Source: Pedobacter westerhofensis (lineage in GTDB: Bacteria > Bacteroidota > Bacteroidia > Sphingobacteriales > Sphingobacteriaceae). Taken from it: DNA of 64,000 nucleotides. Below the pieces are notes generated by a model. That model ran no database searches. It worked only from the letters and a program-made list of their open reading frames with translations, and was not told where the DNA came from. The stretch covers positions 186,001 through 250,000 of the forward strand of contig NZ_FXTN01000003.1 in NCBI RefSeq assembly GCF_900182595.1, given 5' to 3'. Below, piece by piece: positions 5,235 through 28,372 of this stretch. How positions within the stretch are numbered: the first letter of the stretch is position 1; each line of letters starts with the position of its first letter. The position numbers were made by a program, and so were the translations under genes.

Positions 5235-5306
5235 TAGCCCGTAGGGGAATCGAACCCCTATTTCCAGAATGAAAATCTGGCGTCCTAACCGGTAGACGAA
5301 CGGGCC
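5235..5306 (-). tRNA. tRNA-Glu (TTC), copy 1
   Basis: The 72-nt cloverleaf has acceptor GGCCCGT pairing with ACGGGCT. The anticodon loop is TTTTCAT with anticodon TTC, between CCAGA and TCTGG. The T-loop is TTCGATT. CCA is not encoded. It is the last gene of the six-tRNA run. Confidence 0.95.
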
Positions 5307-5347
5307 TTTTCAAAGCGACTCATCTTTGCAAATGCTGCTTCTCCAGG

Positions 5348-5420
<73 letters not shown>

Positions 5421-5455
5421 CTATATTTTTTTGGCCTTCCACCCTTCGGTTTTAG

Positions 5456-5527
5456 TAGCCCGTAGGGGAATCGAACCCCTGTTACCAGAATGAAAATCTG
5501 GCGTCCTCACCCCTAGACGAACGGGCC
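5456..5527 (-). tRNA. tRNA-Glu (TTC), copy 2, variant isodecoder
   Basis: It has the same acceptor, anticodon stem-loop and T-arm as the other two Glu copies. It differs in the D-arm (TCTAGGGGTGAGGAC) and in the variable-loop region. The anticodon is still TTC. Confidence 0.94.
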
Positions 5528-5536
5528 ATTAGATTA

Positions 5537-5566
5537 AAGCGTTTAACCTTCGCAAGTTAAACGCTT
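5537..5566. other. 11-bp spacer hairpin between tRNA genes
   Basis: AAGCGTTTAAC at 5537-5547 is perfectly complementary to 5556-5566 with an 8-nt loop. It has no T run and lies inside the tRNA transcript, so a role in precursor processing is more likely than termination. Confidence 0.6.
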
Positions 5567-5573
5567 CTCCAGG

Positions 5574-5646
<73 letters not shown>

Positions 5647-5660
5647 CTATGCCTTTAATA

Positions 5661-5689
5661 AGAAACGCTAGCGTGCAACTAGCGTTTCT
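5661..5689. other. 11-bp spacer hairpin between tRNA units
   Basis: AGAAACGCTAG at 5661-5671 pairs perfectly with 5679-5689 around a 7-nt loop. Like the hairpin at 5537 it separates a Glu gene from the next Met gene, but its sequence is unrelated. Confidence 0.6.
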
Positions 5690-5692
5690 GTG

Positions 5693-5764
5693 TAGCCCGT
5701 AGGGGAATCGAACCCCTATTTCCAGAATGAAAATCTGGCGTCCTAACCGGTAGACGAACGGGCC
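5693..5764 (-). tRNA. tRNA-Glu (TTC), copy 3
   Basis: It is identical to copy 1 over its whole length, with anticodon TTC. It is part of the 186-bp duplication described separately. Confidence 0.95.
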
Positions 5765-5805
5765 TTTTCAAAGCGACTCATCTTTGCAGATGCTGCTTCT
5801 CCAGG

Positions 5806-5878
<73 letters not shown>

Positions 5879-12350: not shown

Positions 12351-12356
12351 CACACG

Positions 12357-12462
12357 CTTATAAAGAAAGACGGAGGGATTAGACCCTGCGAAGTCTTAGC
12401 AACCTGTGCTTACAAGGTGCTACATTCTACTAGAGCAGTTAAGCCTGCTCCTGAAAGATAAG
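12357..12462 (+). promoter_or_regulatory. SAM-I (S-box) riboswitch upstream of metH
   Basis: The P1 stem pairs CTTAT (12357-12361) with ATAAG (12458-12462). Between them lie the S-box signatures: AAGAAAGACGGAGGGA, a GAC/GTC P2 helix, GCAACC, GGTGCTACATTC and CTGAAAGATAAG. These match the core that binds S-adenosylmethionine. About 110 nt separate it from the metH ATG. No hairpin with a T run follows; a GGAATT/AATTCC stem at about 12479-12511 is a possible part of the switch, so control may act on translation. High SAM should lower metH-metF expression. Confidence 0.88.
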
Positions 12463-12572
12463 TAATTCGATCCGATGCCGGAATTCTGATTAAGCCTGTT
12501 TATTTAATTCCTGAATGAAGTTGTTTCCAAAGAGCAGCGATCATACAGAAATGGCAATGATTACCCCTGATA

Positions 12573-17772: not shown

Positions 17773-19083
17773 TTAAACCTCCTGCAATAAAAATGCTTTA
17801 AAGGCTTCGAAATCTACATTCATATGGGTAGCCGATTTTGCTTTCTTCTTCAATTCTTCCAGCTGCTCCGGCGCATTAACCTGTGCCGCCATCTCCTCAG
17901 AAAATATATCCGGGAACTTGCAGGCATGGGCCGTGGATAAAAATACAAAAGTATCTTCGGCAGACGGGTATTCAGCCTTAAAAGCCTCAACCGCCAGCCA
18001 GGCAATTGCCGTATGCGGACAGGCCACATAATTAAATTGCTCATAAATATCGGTGATCGCCTTTACCGTATCATCATCAGTATATCGGTAGCTCTTTACC
18101 AGCTCTTTCAGTTTCACCGTATCCTGTTTAAACAGCTCCATGATCCTCACCCAGTTGCTTGGTGCGCCCACATCCATTGCATTGGCATACGTTTGTACAG
18201 ACGGACGGGTTTCGTACACGCCTGTTTCCAGGAAACGCGGAACAGTATCATTGGCGTTGGTCGCAGCAATAAACTGTTTTACCGGTAAGCCCATTTTCCA
18301 GGCCAGTAATCCTGCAGCGATGTTTCCAAAGTTTCCGCTCGGTACAGAAAATACAATTTCTCTTTTATCTTCCCTGTACAGTTGTGCAACCGCATTGAAA
18401 TAATAAAACGTCTGAGGGATCAGTCTCGATATATTGATAGAGTTTGCAGAAGTCAGCCTCATTTTAGCGTTCAGCTCATCGTCAGCAAATGCCTGTTTCA
18501 CCAGCGCCTGGCAGTCATCAAACGTTCCGTCGATCTCTATCGCGCGGATATTTTGCCCGTTGCTGCACAGCTGCAGCTCCTGGATCTCACTAACTTTTCC
18601 TTTAGGGTACAAGATCGTCACACGCGTATTAGGTACGCCCAGAAAGCCCAGTGCTACCGCACCACCTGTATCACCTGATGTAGCTACCAGCACATCCAGC
18701 ATCTGCTCTCCGTCTTTCAGAAAATAAGCCATAACCCTGCTCATAAACCTGGCACCAAAATCTTTAAAAGCCAAAGATGGACCGTGAAACAATTCCAGCA
18801 CATAGGTTTCTTCGTTCAGTTTTTTTGCAGGAGCAGGGAAATTGATCGCATCATCGATCAGTGCTTTCAGGTCGTCCGCAGGAATATCATCATGCAGCAA
18901 TGCCGATGCTACTTTATAAGCAATCTCCGGCAGGGTATATTGATCCAGGTTATTCAAAAACTCTTCGTCCAGCACAGGAATTTCTGTTGGCATATACAAG
19001 CCTTTGTCCTGTGGCATACTGTTAAAAACAGCAGACTGAAAATCTACTTCAAGGTCGTGGTTGTTGGTACTATATAATTTCAT
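17773..19083 (-). CDS. thrC: Threonine synthase ThrC
   Basis: This 436-residue PLP enzyme converts O-phosphohomoserine to threonine. The PLP lysine is Lys107 in the motif HGPSLAFKDFGARF. The glycine-rich phosphate loop is ATSGDTGGAVALG. Length and N-terminus (MKLYSTNNHDLEVDF) fit the E. coli-type class. It is the third gene of thrA-thrB-thrC, 11 nt after thrB, so the upstream attenuator should control it. Confidence 0.97.
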   Translation of the reverse strand: MKLYSTNNHDLEVDFQSAVFNSMPQDKGLYMPTEIPVLDEEFLNNLDQYTLPEIAYKVASALLHDDIPADDLKALIDDAINFPAPAKKLNEETYVLELFHGPSLAFKDFGARFMSRVMAYFLKDGEQMLDVLVATSGDTGGAVALGFLGVPNTRVTILYPKGKVSEIQELQLCSNGQNIRAIEIDGTFDDCQALVKQAFADDELNAKMRLTSANSINISRLIPQTFYYFNAVAQLYREDKREIVFSVPSGNFGNIAAGLLAWKMGLPVKQFIAATNANDTVPRFLETGVYETRPSVQTYANAMDVGAPSNWVRIMELFKQDTVKLKELVKSYRYTDDDTVKAITDIYEQFNYVACPHTAIAWLAVEAFKAEYPSAEDTFVFLSTAHACKFPDIFSEEMAAQVNAPEQLEELKKKAKSATHMNVDFEAFKAFLLQEV

Positions 19084-19094
19084 TTTAATATTTG

Positions 19095-20030
19095 TTAATC
19101 CAGTATAACCGGGCCTTTTTTGTTTACCGATGATACAAATGACAGACTGTTGATCTGAATAGATTTCAATTGTTTCTGCAATGCCTGTGTGATCGCGTGC
19201 CCGGTAGCTTCGTCTTTCGTTAAGGCAAAAACAGAGGGCCCCGAACCTGAGATTCCAAAACTGATGGCACCCATTTCCATAGCGATGCTTCTCATCTTGT
19301 AAAAATCAGGGATCAGGATAGAACGCGTAGGCTCTACCAGTCCGTCAACCATACTACGGCCAATCAGATCGTAATCTTTCGTAAACAGACCTGTTACAAG
19401 ACCTGCTACATTGCCCCATTGTTTCACTGCATCTTTCAGAAAAACCTTGGAGCGTATCATCTGCCGTGCATCTTTTGTAGGCACATCTACTTCAGGATAA
19501 ACAATCGCAGCATACATCTCCTCAGGGAAAGGCAGGCTGATCACATCCAATGGCTCATAGCTTCTGATCAGGACAAAACCTCCCAGTAATGCCGGCGCCA
19601 CATTATCCGCATGCCCGTATCCGCAGGCCAGCTCCTCGCCTTTCATTGCAAAGGGAACAAGTTCTTTTGCGCTAAGCTGGTTATCAAACAATGTATTAAT
19701 TGCAAAAAGCCCCGCTACCGTACTTGCAGAACTGGAGCCCAGCCCGCTGCCAATCGGCATCTTTTTATGCAGTTCTATATCTATTCCCATATCCGTACGC
19801 CCAATGTGCTTCAGGTAATCCTGCACACTTGCACTCACTGTATTTTTTGCCGGATTCAGCGGCAGGCGGCCTTCATCACCGGTGATTTTTGAGATCACTA
19901 CGCCCGGAGTATCTGTTACACGCATGATCACTTCATCACCCGGCTCATTCACCGCAAACCCTAACACATCAAACCCGCAAACTACGTTGGCAACTGTAGC
20001 TGGCGCAAAAACTTTTACTGACGATCTCAT
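19095..20030 (-). CDS. thrB: Homoserine kinase ThrB
   Basis: This 311-residue GHMP-family kinase phosphorylates homoserine for ThrC. The ATP-binding motif KKMPIGSGLGSSSASTVAG lies at about residues 89-107, and the C-terminal GHMP motif FGISGSGPSVFAL is present. Its ATG overlaps the thrA stop by 4 nt, which suggests translational coupling. Confidence 0.97.
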   Translation of the reverse strand: MRSSVKVFAPATVANVVCGFDVLGFAVNEPGDEVIMRVTDTPGVVISKITGDEGRLPLNPAKNTVSASVQDYLKHIGRTDMGIDIELHKKMPIGSGLGSSSASTVAGLFAINTLFDNQLSAKELVPFAMKGEELACGYGHADNVAPALLGGFVLIRSYEPLDVISLPFPEEMYAAIVYPEVDVPTKDARQMIRSKVFLKDAVKQWGNVAGLVTGLFTKDYDLIGRSMVDGLVEPTRSILIPDFYKMRSIAMEMGAISFGISGSGPSVFALTKDEATGHAITQALQKQLKSIQINSLSFVSSVNKKGPVILD

Positions 20031-22477
20031 CTTTTACCTACATTTATTATATCTGCGAATACACCTGCTGCAGTTACTTCTGCACCGGCACCTGGTCCTT
20101 TAACTACTAACGGACGGTCTTTGTAACGGTCCGTGATAAAGGAAATAATATTATCACTGCCGGATAACATATAAAAAGGATGGGAATCATCTACCATCTG
20201 CAAGGTGATCGCCACTTTGCCGGCCTCCAGCTTGCCGATATATCTCAGCACTTTACCATTGGCCGCGGCCGTATTTTTCAGGTTTTCAAAGTATGCAGTA
20301 TTGTTCTCCAGCTCCTGGTAAAAATCAGCCACGGTTGCAGCCGCCATACAGGCCGGAGGCAGCATGCTTTCTATTTGTATATCAGACTCCTCTAAGGGAT
20401 ATCCTGCATCTCTCGCCAGGATCAGCATCTTGCGCATAAAATCCTTTCCATTCAAATCGTCACGCGGATCAGGTTCGGTATATCCCATTTCCTGAGCCGA
20501 TTTCACGATCTCGTGGAATTTTACCTCATCTTTAAAATTATTGAAGATATAAGATATTGTGCCAGACAATATCGCTTCAATGCTCGCGATGTTATCGCCG
20601 CTCATCATCAGGTCCTTCAGCGTACGGATAATCGGCAGTCCGGCCCCCACGTTGGTTTCATAATGAAAATCAACACCGTAAGTACGCGCTGCCGCTTTGT
20701 ATGCACTGTACTGGCTATACTCACCAGAGTTGCCTATTTTATTACAGGTAACTACCGAAATGCTGGATTCCAGGATCTCCTGGTAATAATCTACCGGATT
20801 AGGGCTGGCCGTGTTATCCACAAACACACAGTTCGGCAGGTTCATCGCCTTCATCTGTTTTACAAATTCTTTCAGGTCTGCGGGCTCAGCATTTACCAGC
20901 ATCTCTTCTTCCCAGTTAGAAAGATCAAATCCGGCACTGCTCATGCTCATCTGGCGCGAGTTGCTGATACCCATTACTTTCACTTCCAGATCGTTATTTT
21001 TAGCCAGTAAGGGGCTCTGGTTCAGAAGCTGGCGGAACAAAGTTTTACCGATATTTCCTGTTCCCAGGCAAAAGATATGCAGTGTTTTTTTCAGGTCTGC
21101 AAAAAACGCATCGTGTACAGCATTTACTGCTTTTGACAAATCGTTTTTCGACAGGATCACCGAAATATTATATTCTGAAGAACCCTGTGCAATTGCTCTC
21201 ACATTCACACCATTTCTGCCCAGTGCATGAAATAACTTGCCAGACATACCCGGAGTATGTTTCATGTTCTCCCCTACGATTGCCAGTACAGACAATCCGT
21301 TTTCTACCTGCGGGTATTCCAGTTTCTTGGCATGCAGTTCCAGTTCAAACTCCTTGCTGATGATCGCCAGTGCTTTCAGCGCATCGTCTGGCTTCACAGC
21401 AAAGGTAATGCTGTGCTCCGATGAAGACTGGGTGATCAGCACTACATTGATCTGCTCCCTTGACAACAGCGAGAACAGGCGGCCGCTAAAACCAGCTTTT
21501 CCCACCATTCCGCTGCCAGAAAGGTTCAGGATACTGATTTCATCAATTGATGAAATTCCTTTGATCGGCAGATCCGAAGAATCTGCCCCATGGCGGATAT
21601 ATGTACCTTCAAATCCTGTATTGAAGGTGTTTTTGATCACAATAGGGATTTTCTTTAAAAATGCAGGGATCATCGTTGGCGGATAGATCACCTTGGCACC
21701 AAAGTAGGAGAGTTCCATCGCCTCTGTATAGCTGAGTTCAGACAGCGAGAATGCCTTTTCAACGATCCTTGGATCGGCAGTCAGCATCCCGTCTACATCC
21801 GTCCAGATCTCTATCTGTTTTACATTTAAGGCAGAGCCCCAGATTGCTGCAGTAAAATCACTGCCACCACGCCCAAGTGTAGTGATCCTGCCTTCGCTGT
21901 TGCTCGCGATATAGCCGGTTACAAATAACAGTTTGCCCGGGTTGGCTGCGTAGAAATCCTGGATCAGCATTTCTGTCAATGGTGTATTTACTTTTGCCTG
22001 TCCGTAATTATTGTCTGTTTTAATTAGTTCAGAGCCATCAACAGCCAGGGCCGCAGGAAAATCCTGTTTAGCAATATGGCTGATCATAAAGGTAGAGCAG
22101 CGCTCTCCAAAACTCAGGATCGAATCTCTTGTTTGTGCGCTCAGTTCCTGGAGCGTATATACCGACTGCAGGATATCCTCCAGCTCATTAAAGTATATTT
22201 TCAACCTCGTAAACACCGGGTTTTGTGCTGATGCAGGCAAAAGCTCACGAACTACCTGGAAGTGTTTTTCCTCAATTTGTTTCAGTTCGCTGGTATATTC
22301 CTCTGCTAAAAGTGCTTTCTCCGCCATCAGCTGCAGCAGATTGGTCACGCCGCTCATCGCCGAGAGCACAACTACAGGATAATCTTCCTGATCTCCCTTC
22401 TTCAGTATACTGATCAGGGTACGGATGCCCTCTGCTGAACCTACTGAAGTACCTCCGAATTTTAGAATATTCATCAT
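20027..22477 (-). CDS. thrA: Bifunctional aspartokinase I / homoserine dehydrogenase I
   Basis: This 816-residue fusion catalyses the first and third steps from aspartate to threonine. The aspartokinase half begins with KFGGTSVGS and carries RGGSDFTAA. Two ACT regulatory domains lie at about residues 310-460, where threonine feedback normally acts. The homoserine dehydrogenase half has the NAD(P)-binding motif GTGNIGKTL near residue 470. ATG codons at 22477 and 22474 are both possible starts. It heads the operon and lies behind a Thr/Ile leader peptide and terminator. No separate lysine-specific aspartokinase is present in the window. Confidence 0.97.
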   Translation of the reverse strand: MMNILKFGGTSVGSAEGIRTLISILKKGDQEDYPVVVLSAMSGVTNLLQLMAEKALLAEEYTSELKQIEEKHFQVVRELLPASAQNPVFTRLKIYFNELEDILQSVYTLQELSAQTRDSILSFGERCSTFMISHIAKQDFPAALAVDGSELIKTDNNYGQAKVNTPLTEMLIQDFYAANPGKLLFVTGYIASNSEGRITTLGRGGSDFTAAIWGSALNVKQIEIWTDVDGMLTADPRIVEKAFSLSELSYTEAMELSYFGAKVIYPPTMIPAFLKKIPIVIKNTFNTGFEGTYIRHGADSSDLPIKGISSIDEISILNLSGSGMVGKAGFSGRLFSLLSREQINVVLITQSSSEHSITFAVKPDDALKALAIISKEFELELHAKKLEYPQVENGLSVLAIVGENMKHTPGMSGKLFHALGRNGVNVRAIAQGSSEYNISVILSKNDLSKAVNAVHDAFFADLKKTLHIFCLGTGNIGKTLFRQLLNQSPLLAKNNDLEVKVMGISNSRQMSMSSAGFDLSNWEEEMLVNAEPADLKEFVKQMKAMNLPNCVFVDNTASPNPVDYYQEILESSISVVTCNKIGNSGEYSQYSAYKAAARTYGVDFHYETNVGAGLPIIRTLKDLMMSGDNIASIEAILSGTISYIFNNFKDEVKFHEIVKSAQEMGYTEPDPRDDLNGKDFMRKMLILARDAGYPLEESDIQIESMLPPACMAAATVADFYQELENNTAYFENLKNTAAANGKVLRYIGKLEAGKVAITLQMVDDSHPFYMLSGSDNIISFITDRYKDRPLVVKGPGAGAEVTAAGVFADIINVGKR

Positions 22478-22486
22478 ATTTAAATT

Positions 22487-22524
22487 TAAAAAAAAAGCGC
22501 CTTCCGTTTAGAGGAAGGCGCTTT
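22487..22524 (-). terminator. Attenuator terminator of the thr operon
   Basis: On the minus strand GCGCCTTCC pairs perfectly with GGAAGGCGC (22497-22505 with 22513-22521) around a 7-nt loop, extended by flanking A-T pairs. A run of about 9 T follows. It lies between the leader peptide and the thrA start with no other gene between, so it must act as an attenuator. Confidence 0.9.
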
Positions 22525-22558
22525 CTATGGTTATTTATGTTTTCTTTATACCATTAGC

Positions 22559-22624
22559 TCACCTGCCTCCGGGCTCGCCGGTGGTGGTAATAATAATGGA
22601 TGTAATTGTAATATTTGATTTCAT
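22559..22624 (-). CDS. thrL: thr operon leader peptide (Thr/Ile-rich)
   Basis: A 21-codon ORF begins at ATG 22624 and ends at TGA 22559. Its core reads NITITSIIITTTGE, giving 5 Thr and 5 Ile in the first 14 residues. The ending GEPGGR is followed by a stop, 35 nt before the terminator hairpin. The layout and composition match thrL of enteric bacteria, where ribosome stalling at Thr or Ile codons on scarce charged tRNA prevents the terminator from forming. The regulatory role is inferred from this architecture. Confidence 0.88.
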   Translation of the reverse strand: MKSNITITSIIITTTGEPGGR

Positions 22625-22634
22625 ATTTTAACAG

Positions 22635-22642
22635 CAAATACT
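22635..22642 (-). promoter_or_regulatory. Candidate -7 element for the thr operon
   Basis: The minus strand reads AGTATTTG followed by C, two mismatches from TAnnTTTG, 10 nt before the leader ATG. TTATGG lies about 17 nt upstream as a possible -33 element. It is weak but correctly placed. Confidence 0.35.
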
Positions 22643-22789
22643 ATTTAGTTATTGCTGCGCCATAAAGTAAAGTTATATTTTTCTAAATAACAAGGAATTC
22701 AAAAAAAAATAATGTTACGCCGCTAAATCCTTTAAGCAACACTGGTACTGAAAAGACATATTCACAAAAACAGCCTCTACTTTTTTCCT

Positions 22790-22797
22790 TACCTTTA
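22790..22797 (+). promoter_or_regulatory. -7 promoter element of rsgA
   Basis: TACCTTTA is one mismatch from the -7 consensus and lies 10 nt before the rsgA ATG. No clear -33 partner was seen. Confidence 0.4.
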
Positions 22798-22807
22798 CCC
22801 TGTAAAT

Positions 22808-23728
22808 ATGCAAGGATTAGTAATAAAATCAACAGGAAGCTGGTATCAGGTGCATGGCGAGGATGGCCAGGACTACGACTGCAGGATTAAAGGAAAATTC
22901 AGGATCAAAGGTATCCAGACCACTAACCCTGTTGCCGTGGGCGATCAGGTAGAATTTGAAATGGAACCCAATTCAGATAATGGGGTCATTTTTAAACTTC
23001 ATGAACGCAAAAACTATATTATCAGGAAATCTATCAACCTGTCCAAGCAGGCACAGATTATTGCGGCCAACCTGGATCAGGCTTTTCTGGTGGTGACGCT
23101 GGTTTCCCCGCGTACATCGCTGGGATTTATAGACCGTTTCCTGGTTACAGCCGAGGCCTACCGCATCCCGGCCACGCTGATCTTTAACAAGCTCGACCTG
23201 TTCAGTGACGAGGGACTCGAAGTCCTGGCAGAGTACAAAAGCATCTATGAAAAGCTGAACTATCCCTGCTATACGGTGTCGGCACTGGAAGGTACAAATG
23301 TTCCTGTAATAGAAGGGCTCCTGAAAGATCAGACAACTTTATTCTCCGGCCATTCCGGAGTGGGCAAATCCAGCCTGATCAATGCGCTTTTACCCGGCAG
23401 AAGTATCAAAACCGGAGAAATTTCTGAATCGAGCGACAAAGGACAGCATACTACTACCTTCGCCGAAATGCACACCCTTCCCTTTGGCGGTTACCTGATT
23501 GACACGCCGGGCATCAGGGAACTGGGAATCTACGATATCAAACCGGAAGAACTGGGCCATTATTTCCGCGAAATGCGGGACCTGATGCACCTCTGTAAAT
23601 TTCACAATTGCAGACATATCAACGAACCGGGATGCGCGGTTTTAAAGGCCATAGAAAATGATGAAATTGAACTGAGCCGGTATGAAAGTTACCTCAGTAT
23701 CTTTCACGGTAATGAAACAAGGGCATAA
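22808..23728 (+). CDS. rsgA: Ribosome small subunit-dependent GTPase RsgA
   Basis: This 306-residue circularly permuted GTPase checks late 30S assembly. An N-terminal OB fold is followed by the G4 motif NKLD, then G1 GHSGVGKSSL and G3 DTPGIRE, the inverted order that defines the family. The C-terminal zinc knuckle follows CX4CXHX5C (CKFHNCRHINEPGC). Its stop overlaps the start of dtd (TAATG), giving an rsgA-dtd-mazG-like operon. Confidence 0.96.
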   Translation: MQGLVIKSTGSWYQVHGEDGQDYDCRIKGKFRIKGIQTTNPVAVGDQVEFEMEPNSDNGVIFKLHERKNYIIRKSINLSKQAQIIAANLDQAFLVVTLVSPRTSLGFIDRFLVTAEAYRIPATLIFNKLDLFSDEGLEVLAEYKSIYEKLNYPCYTVSALEGTNVPVIEGLLKDQTTLFSGHSGVGKSSLINALLPGRSIKTGEISESSDKGQHTTTFAEMHTLPFGGYLIDTPGIRELGIYDIKPEELGHYFREMRDLMHLCKFHNCRHINEPGCAVLKAIENDEIELSRYESYLSIFHGNETRA

Positions 23729-24180
23729 TGAGAGCTGTCATCCAGAGAGTAACACAGGCCAGCTGCACAGTAGAAGACCAGATTACAGGCCAGATCTCAG
23801 CCGGCCTGATGGTACTGCTTGGCATTGAAGACAGCGACGAGCAGGAAGATCTGGAATGGCTGGCAGCCAAGATCGTTAACCTCAGGATCTTTGCTGATGA
23901 ACAGGGGCTGATGAACAAATCCCTGCCAGATATTGACGGAAACATCCTACTGATCAGTCAGTTCACACTCTACGCTGCTACTAAAAAGGGAAACAGGCCC
24001 GGTTTTACCAGGGCAGCGCGGCCTGAAAAGGCTATACCATTATACGAAGCAATGATCAGTCAGCTGGATATGCTGCTTGGCAAACCGGTACAAACCGGGA
24101 TATTTGGAGCAGATATGAAAATCAGCTTGCTCAACGATGGCCCCGTAACCATCATCATAGACACAAAAAACAAGGAATAG
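23728..24180 (+). CDS. dtd: D-aminoacyl-tRNA deacylase
   Basis: This 150-residue enzyme hydrolyses D-amino acids from mischarged tRNAs. The active-site motifs SQFTLYA and NDGPVTI (the family NxGPVT motif) are intact, as is RPGFTRAARPE. Its ATG overlaps the rsgA stop codon, so the two are translationally coupled. Confidence 0.96.
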   Translation: MRAVIQRVTQASCTVEDQITGQISAGLMVLLGIEDSDEQEDLEWLAAKIVNLRIFADEQGLMNKSLPDIDGNILLISQFTLYAATKKGNRPGFTRAARPEKAIPLYEAMISQLDMLLGKPVQTGIFGADMKISLLNDGPVTIIIDTKNKE

Positions 24181-24182
24181 TA

Positions 24183-24509
24183 ATGACGATACAGGAAGCA
24201 CAGGAAACGGTAGACCGCTGGATCAACACCACCGGCATCCGCTATTTTAATGAGTTAACCAATACCGCAATCTTAATGGAAGAAGTAGGCGAAGTAGCCC
24301 GCATCATGTCACGCCGCTACGGCGAACAGTCTTTCAAAAAAAGTGATGAGCAGGTAGACCTAGGAGATGAGATGGCAGATGTAATGTTCGTACTGATCTG
24401 CCTGGCCAACCAGACAGGAATCAACCTGACCGAAGCATTGGAAAAAAATCTTGTAAAGAAAAGTATCAGAGATGCCGACAGGCACAGGAATAATGAAAAA
24501 TTAAAGTAG
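24183..24509 (+). CDS. MazG-like nucleotide pyrophosphohydrolase
   Basis: This 108-residue single-domain protein has the MazG metal-binding pattern: MEEVGEVAR followed about 30 residues later by DLGDEMADVMF (EExxE and ExxD). Such enzymes hydrolyse nucleoside triphosphates or related nucleotides, possibly in house-cleaning. It starts 3 nt after dtd, and its stop codon lies inside a hairpin shared with the opposing HIT gene. Confidence 0.88.
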   Translation: MTIQEAQETVDRWINTTGIRYFNELTNTAILMEEVGEVARIMSRRYGEQSFKKSDEQVDLGDEMADVMFVLICLANQTGINLTEALEKNLVKKSIRDADRHRNNEKLK

Positions 24510-24531
24510 CACAGTTAATTATAACTGTGCT
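24508..24531. terminator. Bidirectional hairpin at the mazG-like / HIT convergence
   Basis: AGCACAGTTA at 24508-24517 pairs perfectly with 24522-24531 around loop ATTA. It covers the stop codons of both convergent genes. T-rich sequence follows on both strands. Confidence 0.7.
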
Positions 24532-24911
24532 TTGATCTTTAGTGCCGCTTCTGCAAGCTCTTCCTCTGTAGGATGCAACTTTGGCCGGCTAAAATTGATG
24601 TCGTCCATTGTATTCAGCGGAATCAGATGGATATGCGCATGAGGAACTTCAAGGCCTATTACAGCCATTCCAACTTTAATACACGGAAATGCTTTCTTGA
24701 CTCCTGCCGATACAATCTTGGCAAACAGCGTGAGCCCGAAATAACTTTCGTCATCCATATCAAATATATAATCAACTTCTTTCTTCGGGATCACCAGCAC
24801 GTGGCCCATCGTCAGCGGATTAATATCCAGAAAGGCCAGGAATTCTGTGGTTTCTGCAACTACATGTGCGGGAATTTCCCCGTCTATGATTTTTGAAAAT
24901 ATACTTGCCAT
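24519..24911 (-). CDS. HIT family protein
   Basis: This 130-residue histidine-triad protein carries PHAHIHLIPL, the HxHxH nucleotide-binding triad, near residue 97. It begins with CxxIxxGEIPA-like sequence typical of HINT proteins, here with Ser in place of the usual Cys (FSKIIDGEIPAHVV). HINT enzymes hydrolyse adenosine phosphoramidates or related nucleotides. It follows greA by 10 nt in the same direction. Confidence 0.93.
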   Translation of the reverse strand: MASIFSKIIDGEIPAHVVAETTEFLAFLDINPLTMGHVLVIPKKEVDYIFDMDDESYFGLTLFAKIVSAGVKKAFPCIKVGMAVIGLEVPHAHIHLIPLNTMDDINFSRPKLHPTEEELAEAALKIKAQL

Positions 24912-24921
24912 ATCCTGTTGT

Positions 24922-25395
24922 TTATCTGCTTATTTCTAATATTTCGAACTCTATCTTTCCCGCAGGAACTTCAATCTCGGCCTTGTCGCCAACAGATTTA
25001 CCTAGTAATCCCTGGGCAATCGGTGATTTTACAGATATTTTGCCTATTTTCATATCCGCCTCTGTTTCAGCAACCAGCTGATAGGTCATGGTAGCCCCGT
25101 TTTTAACGTTTTTGATTTTAACGATAGATAACGCGAGCACTTTTGATGTGTCCAGTTTTGATTCATCAATCAGTCTCGCCGAAGCTAAAGTAGCCTTCAA
25201 TTTTGATATTTTCGCCTCATGCAGCCCCTGTGCTTCTTTGGCAGCATCATATTCTGCATTCTCTGAAAGATCACCTTTATCTCTTGCTTCAGCTATAGCC
25301 TTAGAGATCAGTTGTCTCCCTGTTGTCGTCAAGTAATGTACTTCTTCCTTTAGCTTATCCAATCCTTCCTGAGTGTAGTATGTTACCTCTGTCAT
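24922..25395 (-). CDS. greA: Transcription elongation factor GreA
   Basis: This 157-residue factor rescues backtracked RNA polymerase by stimulating transcript cleavage. The N-terminal coiled coil contains the tip motif ARDKGDLSENAEYDAAKE with acidic residues for metal binding. The C-terminal FKBP-like domain includes SPIAQGLLGKSVGD. It is co-directional with the HIT gene and has a 190-nt upstream region with a hairpin at 25435-25471. Confidence 0.96.
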   Translation of the reverse strand: MTEVTYYTQEGLDKLKEEVHYLTTTGRQLISKAIAEARDKGDLSENAEYDAAKEAQGLHEAKISKLKATLASARLIDESKLDTSKVLALSIVKIKNVKNGATMTYQLVAETEADMKIGKISVKSPIAQGLLGKSVGDKAEIEVPAGKIEFEILEISR

Positions 25396-25434
25396 AGCTT
25401 AATTTATTATTTATAACTTCCTTTAAAATACAAA

Positions 25435-25471
25435 CAAGACTACATCGGCAGTTTAAGCCCACATAGTCTTG
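25435..25471. other. Stem-loop upstream of greA
   Basis: CAAGACTA at 25435-25442 pairs perfectly with 25464-25471, with an inner GGC/GCC helix. It may be a structured leader of greA or part of the divergent promoter region shared with the M1 peptidase gene. No known riboswitch was recognised. Confidence 0.4.
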
Positions 25472-25529
25472 CTTCAATTAAAACGAAGATAACAGGCAAT
25501 TCTTATAAAAGCAAATCTTTTGATTTGAA

Positions 25530-25562
25530 TTGTTTAGAAAGAACTTAAAACCTTTACTTTTG
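25530..25562 (+). promoter_or_regulatory. Promoter of the M1 peptidase gene
   Basis: TTG at 25530-25532 and TACTTTTG at 25555-25562 are separated by 22 nt. The second is a perfect -7 match, 23 nt before the ATG. Confidence 0.55.
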
Positions 25563-25585
25563 GTGCAACTAATTGATTAATCTTT

Positions 25586-27451
25586 ATGCACCCCAAAATT
25601 TTTAGACTGGCTGTCATAGGTATGTTATTTACCATGACCGCTCAGGCACAACAACTGTACATGCCGAGAAATATCAAAGCTGCCTTCGAGAAAGGTACGC
25701 GTTCGGCTGATGGAAAACCCGGAAAACGCTACTGGCAGAATAAGGGTAAATATAATATGGCCCTTACGGTAACCCCGGTTGACAAACTTGTAAAAGGAAC
25801 AGAGACAATAGAATATACCAATAACAGTCCTGATACACTGCGCCAGATCGCTGTCAGGTTTGTAAATAATATCCATAAACCAGAAGCTCCCCGCTCGGGA
25901 TATGCCGGCGCGGACTTCCTTACCAGCGGACTCAGTATCAGTTCATTTGTGATCGGTGCTGATTCCTACGCAATAGATGCCAAAGACTGGGGAACAATCG
26001 GACTGGTTAAACTAAAAAAGGCAATCCAGCCCGGCGAAACTGCAAGAGTTAAAATCGGCTGGAGCTACCCGCTTTCTAAGGAAAGTGGCAGGGAAGGACA
26101 ACTGGACAGCACAACATATTTTGTTGCCTATTCCTTTCCAAGGATCTCGGTATATGATGACTACAATGGATGGGATATGATCCCCCATACAGACAGGGCA
26201 GAATTTTATAACGATTTCAATGACTATCAGTTTAGCGTAACGGCGCCAAAAAACTATGTGGTTTGGGCGACCGGCGACCTTAAAAATCCAGATGAAGTGC
26301 TGCAGCCAAAAATTGCGCAGCGCTTAAAGAAATCGCTGACCAGTGATGAGGTGATTTCTATGGCAAACGCCAGCGAAATGGCCAACGGCGAAGTAACCAA
26401 ACAAAATGCCTGGAATACCTGGAAATTCACAGCCGATCATATCACCGACGTTACTTTTGCGCTGAGCAACCATTATATATGGGATGCAGGAAGCGTGATC
26501 GTTGATCCTAAAACAAAAAGAAGATCAAGTGTACAATCGGCTTACGACTCAAAGGCTACAGATTTTACACATGGTGTGGAGTGGTCTAAGCTTGCACTGA
26601 ACTGGTTCTCGCTGAACTGGCCGGGCGTACCCTATCCTTTCTCAAAAATGACGGTAGTACAGGGTTTTGCTGATATGGAGTACCCGATGATGGTCAATGA
26701 TTCTACCACTCCTGATATGGAATTCAGCCAGTTTGTGATGAACCACGAGATCGCACATACTTATTTTCCTTTTTATATGGGGATCAACGAAACGCGTTAT
26801 GCCTATATGGACGAAGGCTGGGCGACTACACTGGAGTACCTGATCGCATGTGACCAGCTGGGAAAAGAAAAGGCTGCAGAGAACTATAAACAGTTCAGGG
26901 TAAAAAGGTGGATTGCCAGCAAAAACACGGAGGAAGAACTTCCGGTAATAACACCTACCACACTGGCTACCGGTAATAATGCCTATGTAAAACCCTCGCT
27001 GGCTTACCTTGGCTTAAAAGATATGTTTGGTGACGAGGCTTTCAAAAAATACCTGCGTGTGTACATGGACCGCTGGAACGGAAAACACCCTATCCCATGG
27101 GATTTCTTTAACTCGATTAACGATGCATCCGGTCAGGACCTTAACTGGTACTGGAACAACTGGTTCTTTAGCAATAATTATATTGATCTTGCCATTGATA
27201 AAGTATCTATTAAGGGTGATGAATATTCAGTTGCGCTGAACAACATTGGCGGTTTTGCGATACCTTTTGATGTAAAGGTAACTTATACCGACGGAACTAA
27301 ACAGCTGATCCATCAGACGCCGGCAGTCTGGAAAGCCAATCAGAAAGCTGTGTCAGTCCAGTTCAGTGCACAAAAAGCAGTAGCTGCAATCATGATTGAC
27401 GGAGGTATTTATATGGATGCTACCCCGGCAAATAACGACTGGAAAAAATAG
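25586..27451 (+). CDS. M1 family zinc metallopeptidase
   Basis: This 621-residue secreted peptidase has a signal peptide ending MTAQAQ. The zinc site is HEIAH at residues 387-391 plus Glu410, 18 residues after the second histidine, as in M1 aminopeptidases. The N-terminal region is a beta-sandwich domain. The usual GAMEN substrate motif is replaced by MEYPMM at about residues 365-370, as in several Bacteroidota members. The protein is predicted to be periplasmic or extracellular. It is monocistronic with its own promoter and terminator. Confidence 0.93.
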   Translation: MHPKIFRLAVIGMLFTMTAQAQQLYMPRNIKAAFEKGTRSADGKPGKRYWQNKGKYNMALTVTPVDKLVKGTETIEYTNNSPDTLRQIAVRFVNNIHKPEAPRSGYAGADFLTSGLSISSFVIGADSYAIDAKDWGTIGLVKLKKAIQPGETARVKIGWSYPLSKESGREGQLDSTTYFVAYSFPRISVYDDYNGWDMIPHTDRAEFYNDFNDYQFSVTAPKNYVVWATGDLKNPDEVLQPKIAQRLKKSLTSDEVISMANASEMANGEVTKQNAWNTWKFTADHITDVTFALSNHYIWDAGSVIVDPKTKRRSSVQSAYDSKATDFTHGVEWSKLALNWFSLNWPGVPYPFSKMTVVQGFADMEYPMMVNDSTTPDMEFSQFVMNHEIAHTYFPFYMGINETRYAYMDEGWATTLEYLIACDQLGKEKAAENYKQFRVKRWIASKNTEEELPVITPTTLATGNNAYVKPSLAYLGLKDMFGDEAFKKYLRVYMDRWNGKHPIPWDFFNSINDASGQDLNWYWNNWFFSNNYIDLAIDKVSIKGDEYSVALNNIGGFAIPFDVKVTYTDGTKQLIHQTPAVWKANQKAVSVQFSAQKAVAAIMIDGGIYMDATPANNDWKK

Positions 27452-27468
27452 GATCCAATTTTTTTTTT

Positions 27469-27505
27469 AAAAAGCCATCTTATTCATTTTGAGATGGCTT
27501 TTTTC
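27469..27505 (+). terminator. Intrinsic terminator after the M1 peptidase gene
   Basis: AGCCATCT pairs with AGATGGCT around a 12-nt A/T-rich loop. A flanking A run and a TTTTTT tail extend the helix. Confidence 0.85.
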
Positions 27506-27629
27506 GTATAGAAAATACGTTATATTCACAAATCAATGTATTATTTTCATAATTTTTAATTATTGTTTTTATTTAAGATATTTAAGTATTAATTTTACCG
27601 GTATAATTTTACTTAAAACAAAAACGAAT

Positions 27630-27848
27630 ATGAATCATAGAGGACGTTTTCAGGTACAGGGTAAAAACCTGGAGGATTCCAACAGCTGGGCGCAGGAATC
27701 GCCGCTGCTGGCTATCACAGGAATGGAATTATTGAATAATTTAAATGGGCGTTTAAGTATTAACGATGCCAGGATAAGATCAAAGGGCTTTGCCAGATGC
27801 AGGCGATTTATTATAGCAGCCAGGGAAAATGGAGGCGTTAATATCTAA
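27630..27848 (+). CDS. Small hypothetical protein, probably a truncated ORF
   Basis: A 72-codon ORF begins at ATG 27630 (MNHRGRFQVQGK); the frame is open further upstream, but that part is low-complexity and AT-rich. The product is basic at its C-terminus, contains a conserved-looking SWAQESPL segment, and has no signal peptide. It ends at TAA 27846, after which the same frame continues open to 27944. The interruption suggests a nonsense mutation in a gene of about 104 codons. The function is unknown. It belongs to an AT-rich patch of small genes unlike the neighbouring core genome. Confidence 0.6.
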   Translation: MNHRGRFQVQGKNLEDSNSWAQESPLLAITGMELLNNLNGRLSINDARIRSKGFARCRRFIIAARENGGVNI

Positions 27849-27851
27849 AAT

Positions 27852-27944
27852 ATGGGAAAACCGCTCATCAAGTCCTTTCCTAAAAATTTCAGCGAAAGAT
27901 TGGATTTGGAGGTTCATTTAGGAATAGCATTTATAAAAGAATAA
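27852..27944 (+). pseudogene. In-frame continuation after the stop at 27846 (30 codons)
   Basis: This ATG is in the same frame as the 27630 ORF, separated only by TAA and one AAT codon. It encodes MGKPLIKSFPKNF and then a segment with SERLDLEVHLG. It could be the detached C-terminus of the preceding protein, or a separately initiated mini-protein. The next gene starts 2 nt after its stop. Confidence 0.45.
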
Positions 27945-27946
27945 AA

Positions 27947-28372
27947 ATGAAAAATCTGATGGAAGTATTAGCTATTGGTAGTTTTGTGGAGGATCCGCAA
28001 AACTACTCTGATTTAAAAGATTTTTGGAAACATACATTCACTGATCTGACTGGTTTGCCCGCTACAGCATACGTCAACAATCAATATGGAAACGGGAAAG
28101 AAATTCTTGATGGAAATCCTATTTTTACTTCAGTACTTGATGGTAGCAGGGGGATAAGAATTATCCAGACAGAGTTTGATGATGGGCAGCCGGCCCTTTC
28201 TTCATGGATAAACGAAACCACTATCGCTGACAGCCGCTTCGAAGAATTGGTAATTGCACTGCAATTAAGCTTTGATACATTTACAGATACAAGCCAGTTG
28301 ATCAGGTTATATGCGGATGAAACTTTGACACCAGCGATTCTTGAAAGCATCAATGAGAAATATTCTGCATAA
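27947..28372 (+). CDS. Hypothetical protein of the accessory patch
   Basis: This 141-residue acidic cytoplasmic protein has no signal peptide, membrane segment or recognised motif. Aromatic residues cluster early (DFWKHTFTDLTG), and the C-terminal half looks helical. It lies 2 nt after the upstream mini-ORF, which suggests a small operon 27630-28372. Its last codons lie inside a perfect 14-bp hairpin. A toxin-immunity role is conceivable for such a pair but nothing in the sequence shows it. Confidence 0.65.
   Translation: MKNLMEVLAIGSFVEDPQNYSDLKDFWKHTFTDLTGLPATAYVNNQYGNGKEILDGNPIFTSVLDGSRGIRIIQTEFDDGQPALSSWINETTIADSRFEELVIALQLSFDTFTDTSQLIRLYADETLTPAILESINEKYSA

Follow-up and report, generated by a model that had tools for sequence, protein, structure and literature searches.

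The closest described counterpart of the element analysed here is the thrL leader of Escherichia coli (Rfam RF00506, Thr_leader), in which a 21-codon leader rich in threonine (Thr) and isoleucine (Ile) codons and a terminator stand just ahead of thrABC and an alternative 2:3 pairing can form. The same arrangement precedes thrABC in Pedobacter westerhofensis, a member of the Sphingobacteriaceae (Bacteroidota), within a 64,000-nucleotide (nt) stretch of contig NZ_FXTN01000003.1 (positions 186,001 to 250,000 of the forward strand; assembly GCF_900182595.1) that is called the window below and whose first letter is position 1. Comparative sequence evidence indicates that the stretch ahead of thrA is very probably a ribosome-mediated transcription attenuator that would sense charged threonyl- and isoleucyl-transfer RNA (tRNA).

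Leader-peptide attenuation has been reported for amino-acid operons of Flavobacterium psychrophilum, a member of the same phylum (PMC9723704); the relevant passages of that report leave the operon unnamed, and its main text does not contain 'threonine' or 'thrA'. In Bacteroides thetaiotaomicron, also of this phylum, short open reading frames (ORFs) in long 5' untranslated regions have been likened to the leader peptides of transcription attenuation (PMC7366714); the example there is a hypothetical gene, and 'threonine' is absent from the main text. The Bacteroid-trp RNA motif (RF01692) is tabulated among RNAs predicted to regulate genes in cis in Bacteroidetes (PMC2864571). Its name suggests that it serves a trp operon and hence another operon than the one considered here; the window has no match to it at the gathering threshold, and 'leader peptide' and 'attenuation' do not occur in the main text of its description (PMC2864571). 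The premature-terminator survey of Naville and Gautheret (2010) treats leader-peptide attenuators as a class and considers their repeated convergent origin; 'bacteroid' is absent from its main text (PMC2965389). No description of a thr attenuator in Bacteroidota was found in titles and abstract openings, a result of little weight since the search lay largely outside subscription journals. The survey of Vitreschak et al. (2004) is said to list, in its abstract, candidate amino-acid attenuators also in Bacteroidetes/Chlorobi, and a comparative survey by Lopatovskaya et al. (2010) is cited in PMC4833913.

The leader ORF, the terminator hairpin and thrABC all lie on the minus strand, a detail that the preliminary description, which placed the feature correctly, had left unstated. 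The leader (22559-22624) translates into a peptide of 21 codons, MKSNITITSIIITTTGEPGGR, and no Shine-Dalgarno-like sequence precedes its ATG. Its control codons, which constitute region 1, read directly as ATT ACA ATT ACA TCC ATT ATT ATT ACC ACC ACC (22580-22612). Region 2, the predicted 5' strand of the antiterminator (AGGCAGGTGAGCTAA, 22554-22568), forms a duplex of -9.6 kcal/mol (RNAduplex) with region 3, the 5' arm of the terminator (AGAAAGCGCCTTCC, 22513-22526), which the terminator scan and the duplex test identify as its alternative partner. The intrinsic terminator as a whole (22488-22526; terminator scan and sequence reading) is a hairpin of 14 pairs with a 7-nt loop, AGAAAGCGCCTTCC-TCTAAAC-GGAAGGCGCTTTTT (22526-22492), with nine T at 22496-22488. 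The leader length and the presence of a strong terminator agree with the earlier account, and the gap between the leader stop codon and the terminator stem is 32 nt rather than the 35 given there. A predicted 1:2 (pause or protector) hairpin, in which control codons pair as CCATTA.. with ..TAATGG (22551-22599), is present in the window's own minimum-free-energy fold. The region 22484-22640 folds at -43.9 kcal/mol (z = -5.0), and none of 200 shuffles was equally stable.

On the attenuator reading, a shortage of Thr or Ile would stall the leading ribosome on the Thr/Ile codons. Region 2 would then be free to pair with the 5' arm of the terminator, and RNA polymerase would read on into thrABC. 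With Thr and Ile plentiful, the ribosome would reach the stop codon and cover region 2, and the terminator would then fold and end transcription ahead of thrA. This reading is favoured because the leader is conserved, because Thr and Ile are kept in its core, because of the outcomes of a stall simulation and an arm-swap test, and because candidate leaders precede the trp and his operons of the same genome. At the level of sequence, the comparisons establish the conserved leader, the preservation of core Thr/Ile codons, the hairpin with its run of T, and a region 2 that matches the terminator arm found in the same genome.

Conservation was assessed through ThrA searches of 59 relatives and then of 101 same-family and 247 same-class genomes, and through reading of the DNA ahead of thrA. 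A full ThrA occurs in 84 of the 101 family genomes; it is of the window's type (at least 62% identity) in 77 and of a type with 46-48% identity in 7. The own-family set comprised 109 distinct full-length ThrA places at 62% identity or more (34 plus 75 new), and a leader was scored where 12 residues of a short ORF included 7 or more Thr/Ile. One hundred own-family loci were read first, one of which (L026) was excluded from leader counts for having only 112 nt upstream; all of the remaining 99 have a Thr/Ile-rich leader ahead of thrA. In a held-out set, the leader is present at nine of nine remaining own-family loci and on L304, a contig fragment of the genus (10/10), and absent from a locus of another family read alongside (L303). 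Loss of the leader where thrA is kept would, by the preliminary description's own test, have refuted it; within the family the leader is instead present at 109 of 109 loci with the window's ThrA type and enough upstream sequence. Beyond these loci conservation holds only in part: the seven own-family loci with the 46-48% ThrA, which belong to a far set of 50 loci, have another leader form or none, and in other families at least half of the loci lack a leader at the same threshold. Chance does not produce such leaders often. Dinucleotide shuffles (99 regions, 20 shuffles each) attain the threshold in 1.4% of cases, and the reverse strand of the same upstream regions does so in 3 of 99, while no shuffled region reaches 9 Thr/Ile in 12 residues; the window's leader has 10.

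The leader appears to be under selection as a coding sequence. Among single-base codon differences in its core, Thr or Ile is kept in 48 of 61, against 25.4 expected (binomial 4e-9, with differences counted as unique by position and codon pair and kinship on a tree ignored). Codon differences in the tail that follows the core are synonymous in 15 of 50 cases, against 10.8 expected, which points to little constraint; the amino acids of the tail thus look free. A strict terminator script is positive at 85 of the 99 own-family loci, and these 85 underlie the terminator, simulation, swap and Shine-Dalgarno counts. Their leaders start with ATG (76), GTG (8) or TTG (1) and end at stop codons variable in type and place (58 TAA, 18 TAG and 9 TGA), 15-43 nt ahead of the stem. 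A Shine-Dalgarno-like tetramer is found at 1 of the 85 leaders and at none of the 85 thrA starts (taken as the first aligned residue), in keeping with the earlier remark that translation in this phylum begins largely without such sequences.

In the stall simulation, the RNA was ended before the 3' arm of the terminator, the ribosome footprint was masked codon by codon, and the probability that the terminator 5' arm pairs with upstream RNA was read out. Upstream pairing averages 0.67 when a Thr/Ile codon occupies the A site and 0.22 when the stop codon does; the Thr/Ile stall gives the higher value at all 85 loci. From 0.69 at the last core codon, pairing falls to 0.55, 0.34 and 0.22 at the next three codons. 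The likeness to thrL that had been noted from layout extends to this profile: in the same script E. coli thrL starts from 0.67 and falls to 0.48 at its penultimate and 0.06 at its final Thr codon, a drop that comes somewhat earlier. With the ribosome on the start codon, mean pairing across the 85 loci is 0.50.

The swap test made use of natural variation among terminator stems, which fall into the classes CCTTCC (60 loci), GTCCCG (18), GCCCC (3) and GCTCCC (2), with two single cases. Region 2 pairs with the arm of its own locus at -12.3 kcal/mol on average and with arms of other classes at -7.8 kcal/mol, the own arm being the stronger partner at 79 of 85 loci; none of 2000 permutations reaches the observed sum. 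By eye, the ThrA tree implies that stems switched between CCTTCC and C-rich sequence two or more times within the genus. A shuffle control gave region 2 a pairing of 0.62, against 0.42 for shuffled versions, with the real sequence above its shuffled mean in 79 of 85. In that control the last control codon included isolated Thr/Ile codons after the core, which placed region 2 too far downstream at some loci; the swap test used a revised definition. The comparative tests thus support the attenuation first proposed from the window alone, and the modelling finds a mutually exclusive antiterminator that would be freed by stalling on the control codons, the shuffle control of region 2 being of moderate strength.

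Several results weigh against the attenuator reading. Without any ribosome, the terminator arm already has a 0.51 chance of upstream pairing, so that basal termination is poorly explained, and the greater pairing for upstream stalls than for the stop-codon stall is partly a matter of geometry. At only 37 of 85 loci do at most 2% of 50 shuffles pair as well as the real region 2, and the 0.42 retained by shuffled sequences makes for a moderate control. In the swap test, the permutation statistic ignores relatedness, the own arm is no better a partner at 6 of the 85 loci, and the window's own duplex is weaker than the -12.3 kcal/mol mean. The three C-rich stem classes can mostly stand in for one another, the own arm of GCTCCC (2 loci, -11.9 kcal/mol) not being the best partner, and the swap result therefore rests mainly on CCTTCC versus C-rich stems. 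By eye, the 14 own-family terminators that miss the strict rule are hairpins in which the T tract is shorter or broken or the stem is uneven. Finally, TAnnTTT-like sites lie ahead of 39 of the 85 leaders, against 22.8 expected from shuffles, and yield no convincing promoter.

Leaders of a similar kind precede other biosynthetic operons. In the P. westerhofensis genome, a His-rich leader, MNKHLNHHLHLHHRQLWR, lies upstream of hisG (L261, G000:C15). At this and eight further same-genus his loci (L254-L260 and L262), inspection by eye finds a hairpin of the ATCGCC-loop-GGCGAT type at or just before the leader stop codon. At several of them a weak hairpin of high AT content, with a T run, comes next, and at none of the nine did the inspection show a strong terminator. 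Upstream of trpE in the same genome (L281, G000:C3 near 622979), a leader with WQW, MIYNIHTWQWRGYSEKSIVVALCTL, precedes a hairpin (CCCGACG..CGTCGGG) and a run of seven T, together a candidate classical trp attenuator. Ile-rich leaders with a nine-T run precede ilvD in three same-genus relatives, and none was seen ahead of the genome's own ilvD. Twelve further genomes, those behind a set of named loci (Flavobacteriaceae, Chitinophagaceae-like, Chryseobacterium and Dyadobacter), include 11 with a His-rich leader ahead of hisG, 10 of them with a run of at least six T after the leader, and a minority with plain Ile/Val/Leu-rich leaders ahead of ilvD. Given these his, trp and ilvD leaders, leader-peptide attenuation seems to be common in the phylum, which agrees with the passage on F. 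psychrophilum operons (PMC9723704).

Outside the window's ThrA type, Thr leaders mostly take a second form. A leader at the 7-in-12 threshold precedes thrA at 17 of the 50 far loci and 40 of the 80 named loci; one of these 40, a named Mucilaginibacter record (L250), is itself of the window's ThrA type (69% identity) and has the window's architecture. In most such leaders a short GC hairpin, typically ACCCC-loop-GGGGT, has its start inside the last Thr codon or adjacent to it. After 21 named loci with fewer than five Thr/Ile were dropped, the hairpin was found at 52 of the remaining 59; it was also found at all 20 loci selected from the far set, giving 72 of 79, although 52/59 is the fair figure because those 20 were chosen by eye after the data had been viewed. 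In 69 of the 72 it overlaps the stop codon or lies at most 3 nt from it. By comparison with the 72 in 79, shuffled versions of this stretch have the hairpin at a rate of 20% and other parts of the same regions at 11%; stems of at least five pairs with four GC occur at 49 of 79, against 4% and 3%, respectively. Between some families the two arms change together (ACGGGG..CCCGT, CCCGG..CCGGG). A YATAT element begins 4-12 nt past the hairpin in 54 of the 72, against 13% in mononucleotide shuffles. The strict rule that detects a terminator in 85 of 99 loci of the window's family detects none in these 72, and no Rfam family match was obtained in 20 of the 80 named loci. Example loci with such a hairpin ahead of thrA are L171-L247 (for example L171:1368-1503) and far loci.

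These features raise the possibility, put forward tentatively, of a second, undescribed kind of attenuator in Bacteroidota, composed of a Thr leader, a stop-codon GC hairpin and YATAT without an intrinsic terminator, with the thrL-like form a later product of one clade. A stalled ribosome would here cover the 5' arm of the stop-codon hairpin, which would make an antiterminator unnecessary. The spacing between the hairpin and YATAT resembles that of a hairpin-stabilised RNA-polymerase pause, and a guess is that the second form acts through pausing or Rho. The two forms appear to trade places between operons, because the window's genus has the stop-codon hairpin at his and the terminator at thr, while 6 of 7 Flavobacteriaceae sampled for both operons show the reverse, a thr hairpin and a his terminator.

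The preliminary description had left a choice between independent origin and deep conservation of the thr element. Inheritance of the RNA element from enteric thrL, or its exchange with it, would account for the shared layout and for the shared Thr run ending in ACC ACN GG, and the Rfam Thr_leader model does match the element over its full length (32.9 bits, E = 1.8e-4 for 411 bases). That score is, however, below the model's gathering score of 55, so that the family is absent from the window at its gathering threshold; the terminator stem differs in sequence from that of E. coli, and a Shine-Dalgarno-like tetramer precedes only 1 of 85 leaders of the window's family. The window's ThrA is 38% identical to that of E. 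coli and 44-54% identical to its counterparts in the other Bacteroidota families that were compared. A gammaproteobacterial origin of thrA by horizontal transfer was considered, and these identities do not support it.

A ThrA tree (86 rows after thinning; quick method with only Shimodaira-Hasegawa-like approximate likelihood-ratio support) also argues for separate origins, with E. coli as its sole gammaproteobacterial row, on a very long branch, and with 'none' labels that include script misses. The terminator type forms one Bacteroidota clade of 12 rows (support 100), including L161, which is labelled as another family. Leaders are absent from the rows closest to this clade, and the stop-codon hairpin marks those that come next; E. 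coli branches separately. With these lineages in between, the terminator type requires two separate changes. The stop-codon hairpin and the 'none' state change 15 and 16 times on the tree, respectively, and thus have a patchy history. The tree, with its one E. coli row, therefore favours an independent origin of the terminator architecture, which likely arose within this Bacteroidota clade and not by descent from enteric thrL; common ancestry or transfer of the RNA element is unlikely. Two observations on individual rows may be added. L107/L161 (G169) has a leader with Met, Thr and Ile codons (..MTTIMSIMGDVQSWR) followed by a strong hairpin with a CCTTCC arm, and may sense methionine besides Thr and Ile. 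The ThrA proteins of L223 (titled Sphingobacterium thalpophilum) and L230 (titled Pyrinomonadaceae) group with a Chitinophagaceae-titled row and a Hymenobacter row, and these two metagenome bins may be mislabelled.

Control by the leader peptide could instead act mainly on translation or through Rho, with the ribosome lying over the thrA start or a Rho site. At 43 of the 85 own-family loci, over 30 nt separate the end of the terminator from thrA, which leaves room for other control, and the stop-codon-hairpin leaders of other Bacteroidota do without a strict terminator altogether. Such a scheme is nevertheless improbable for the window's family, whose leaders are regularly followed by a GC-rich stem and T run and whose region 2 tracks changes in the terminator stem. 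That the hairpin is the ordinary terminator of some other transcript, such as a small RNA, with a leader ORF arising by chance, is very improbable: a strong terminator is by itself silent on which transcript ends there, and a sub-threshold match to the small-RNA family GibS exists (29 bits against a gathering score of 115, E = 0.038), but the Thr/Ile-rich leader recurs throughout the family with its Thr/Ile identity preserved, region 2 is fitted to the terminator arm of the same genome, and the terminator, flanked by divergent genes, is on the same strand as thr.

The three genes downstream of the attenuator candidate, all on the minus strand, score above their NCBIfam model cut-offs. thrA (20027-22477), a fused aspartate kinase/homoserine dehydrogenase, matches NF006959 at 1025.9 bits (cut-off 726), its first ATG being at 22477 and a second at 22474. 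thrB (19095-20030) encodes homoserine kinase (NF002288, 383.7 bits; TIGR00191, 219.1 bits) and thrC (17773-19083) threonine synthase (TIGR00260, 303.3 bits). The neighbour rsgA (22808-23728, plus strand) is 330 nt from thrA and divergent from it; thus, there is no converging gene in need of a terminator. Sigma-70-like sites are no more frequent than expected in 21000-28000 (11 observed, 14.3 expected). An Rfam scan of the window at the gathering threshold found no leader family, its only hits being an S-adenosylmethionine (SAM) riboswitch (RF00162, 62.9 bits; 12355-12464, plus strand) and six consecutive tRNA genes with near-equal scores (5235-5878, minus strand).

As far as sequence can tell, the element of the window is a sound, well conserved Thr/Ile attenuator of a known kind, and leader-peptide attenuation has precedents in Bacteroidota. 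The present analysis adds its extent, the co-variation of its parts, the finding that Shine-Dalgarno sequences are almost never present at the leader, and the contrast that it makes with a form lacking a terminator. It looks like convergent evolution of a textbook switch, and the Thr leaders that lack a terminator, found in other Bacteroidota families, might offer a route to tracing the history of that switch. Attenuation by a leading ribosome requires close coupling of transcription and translation. A conserved attenuator with co-varying parts, whose leaders start without Shine-Dalgarno sequences, would therefore be indirect evidence for such coupling in these bacteria, and this locus would make the question of coupling testable.
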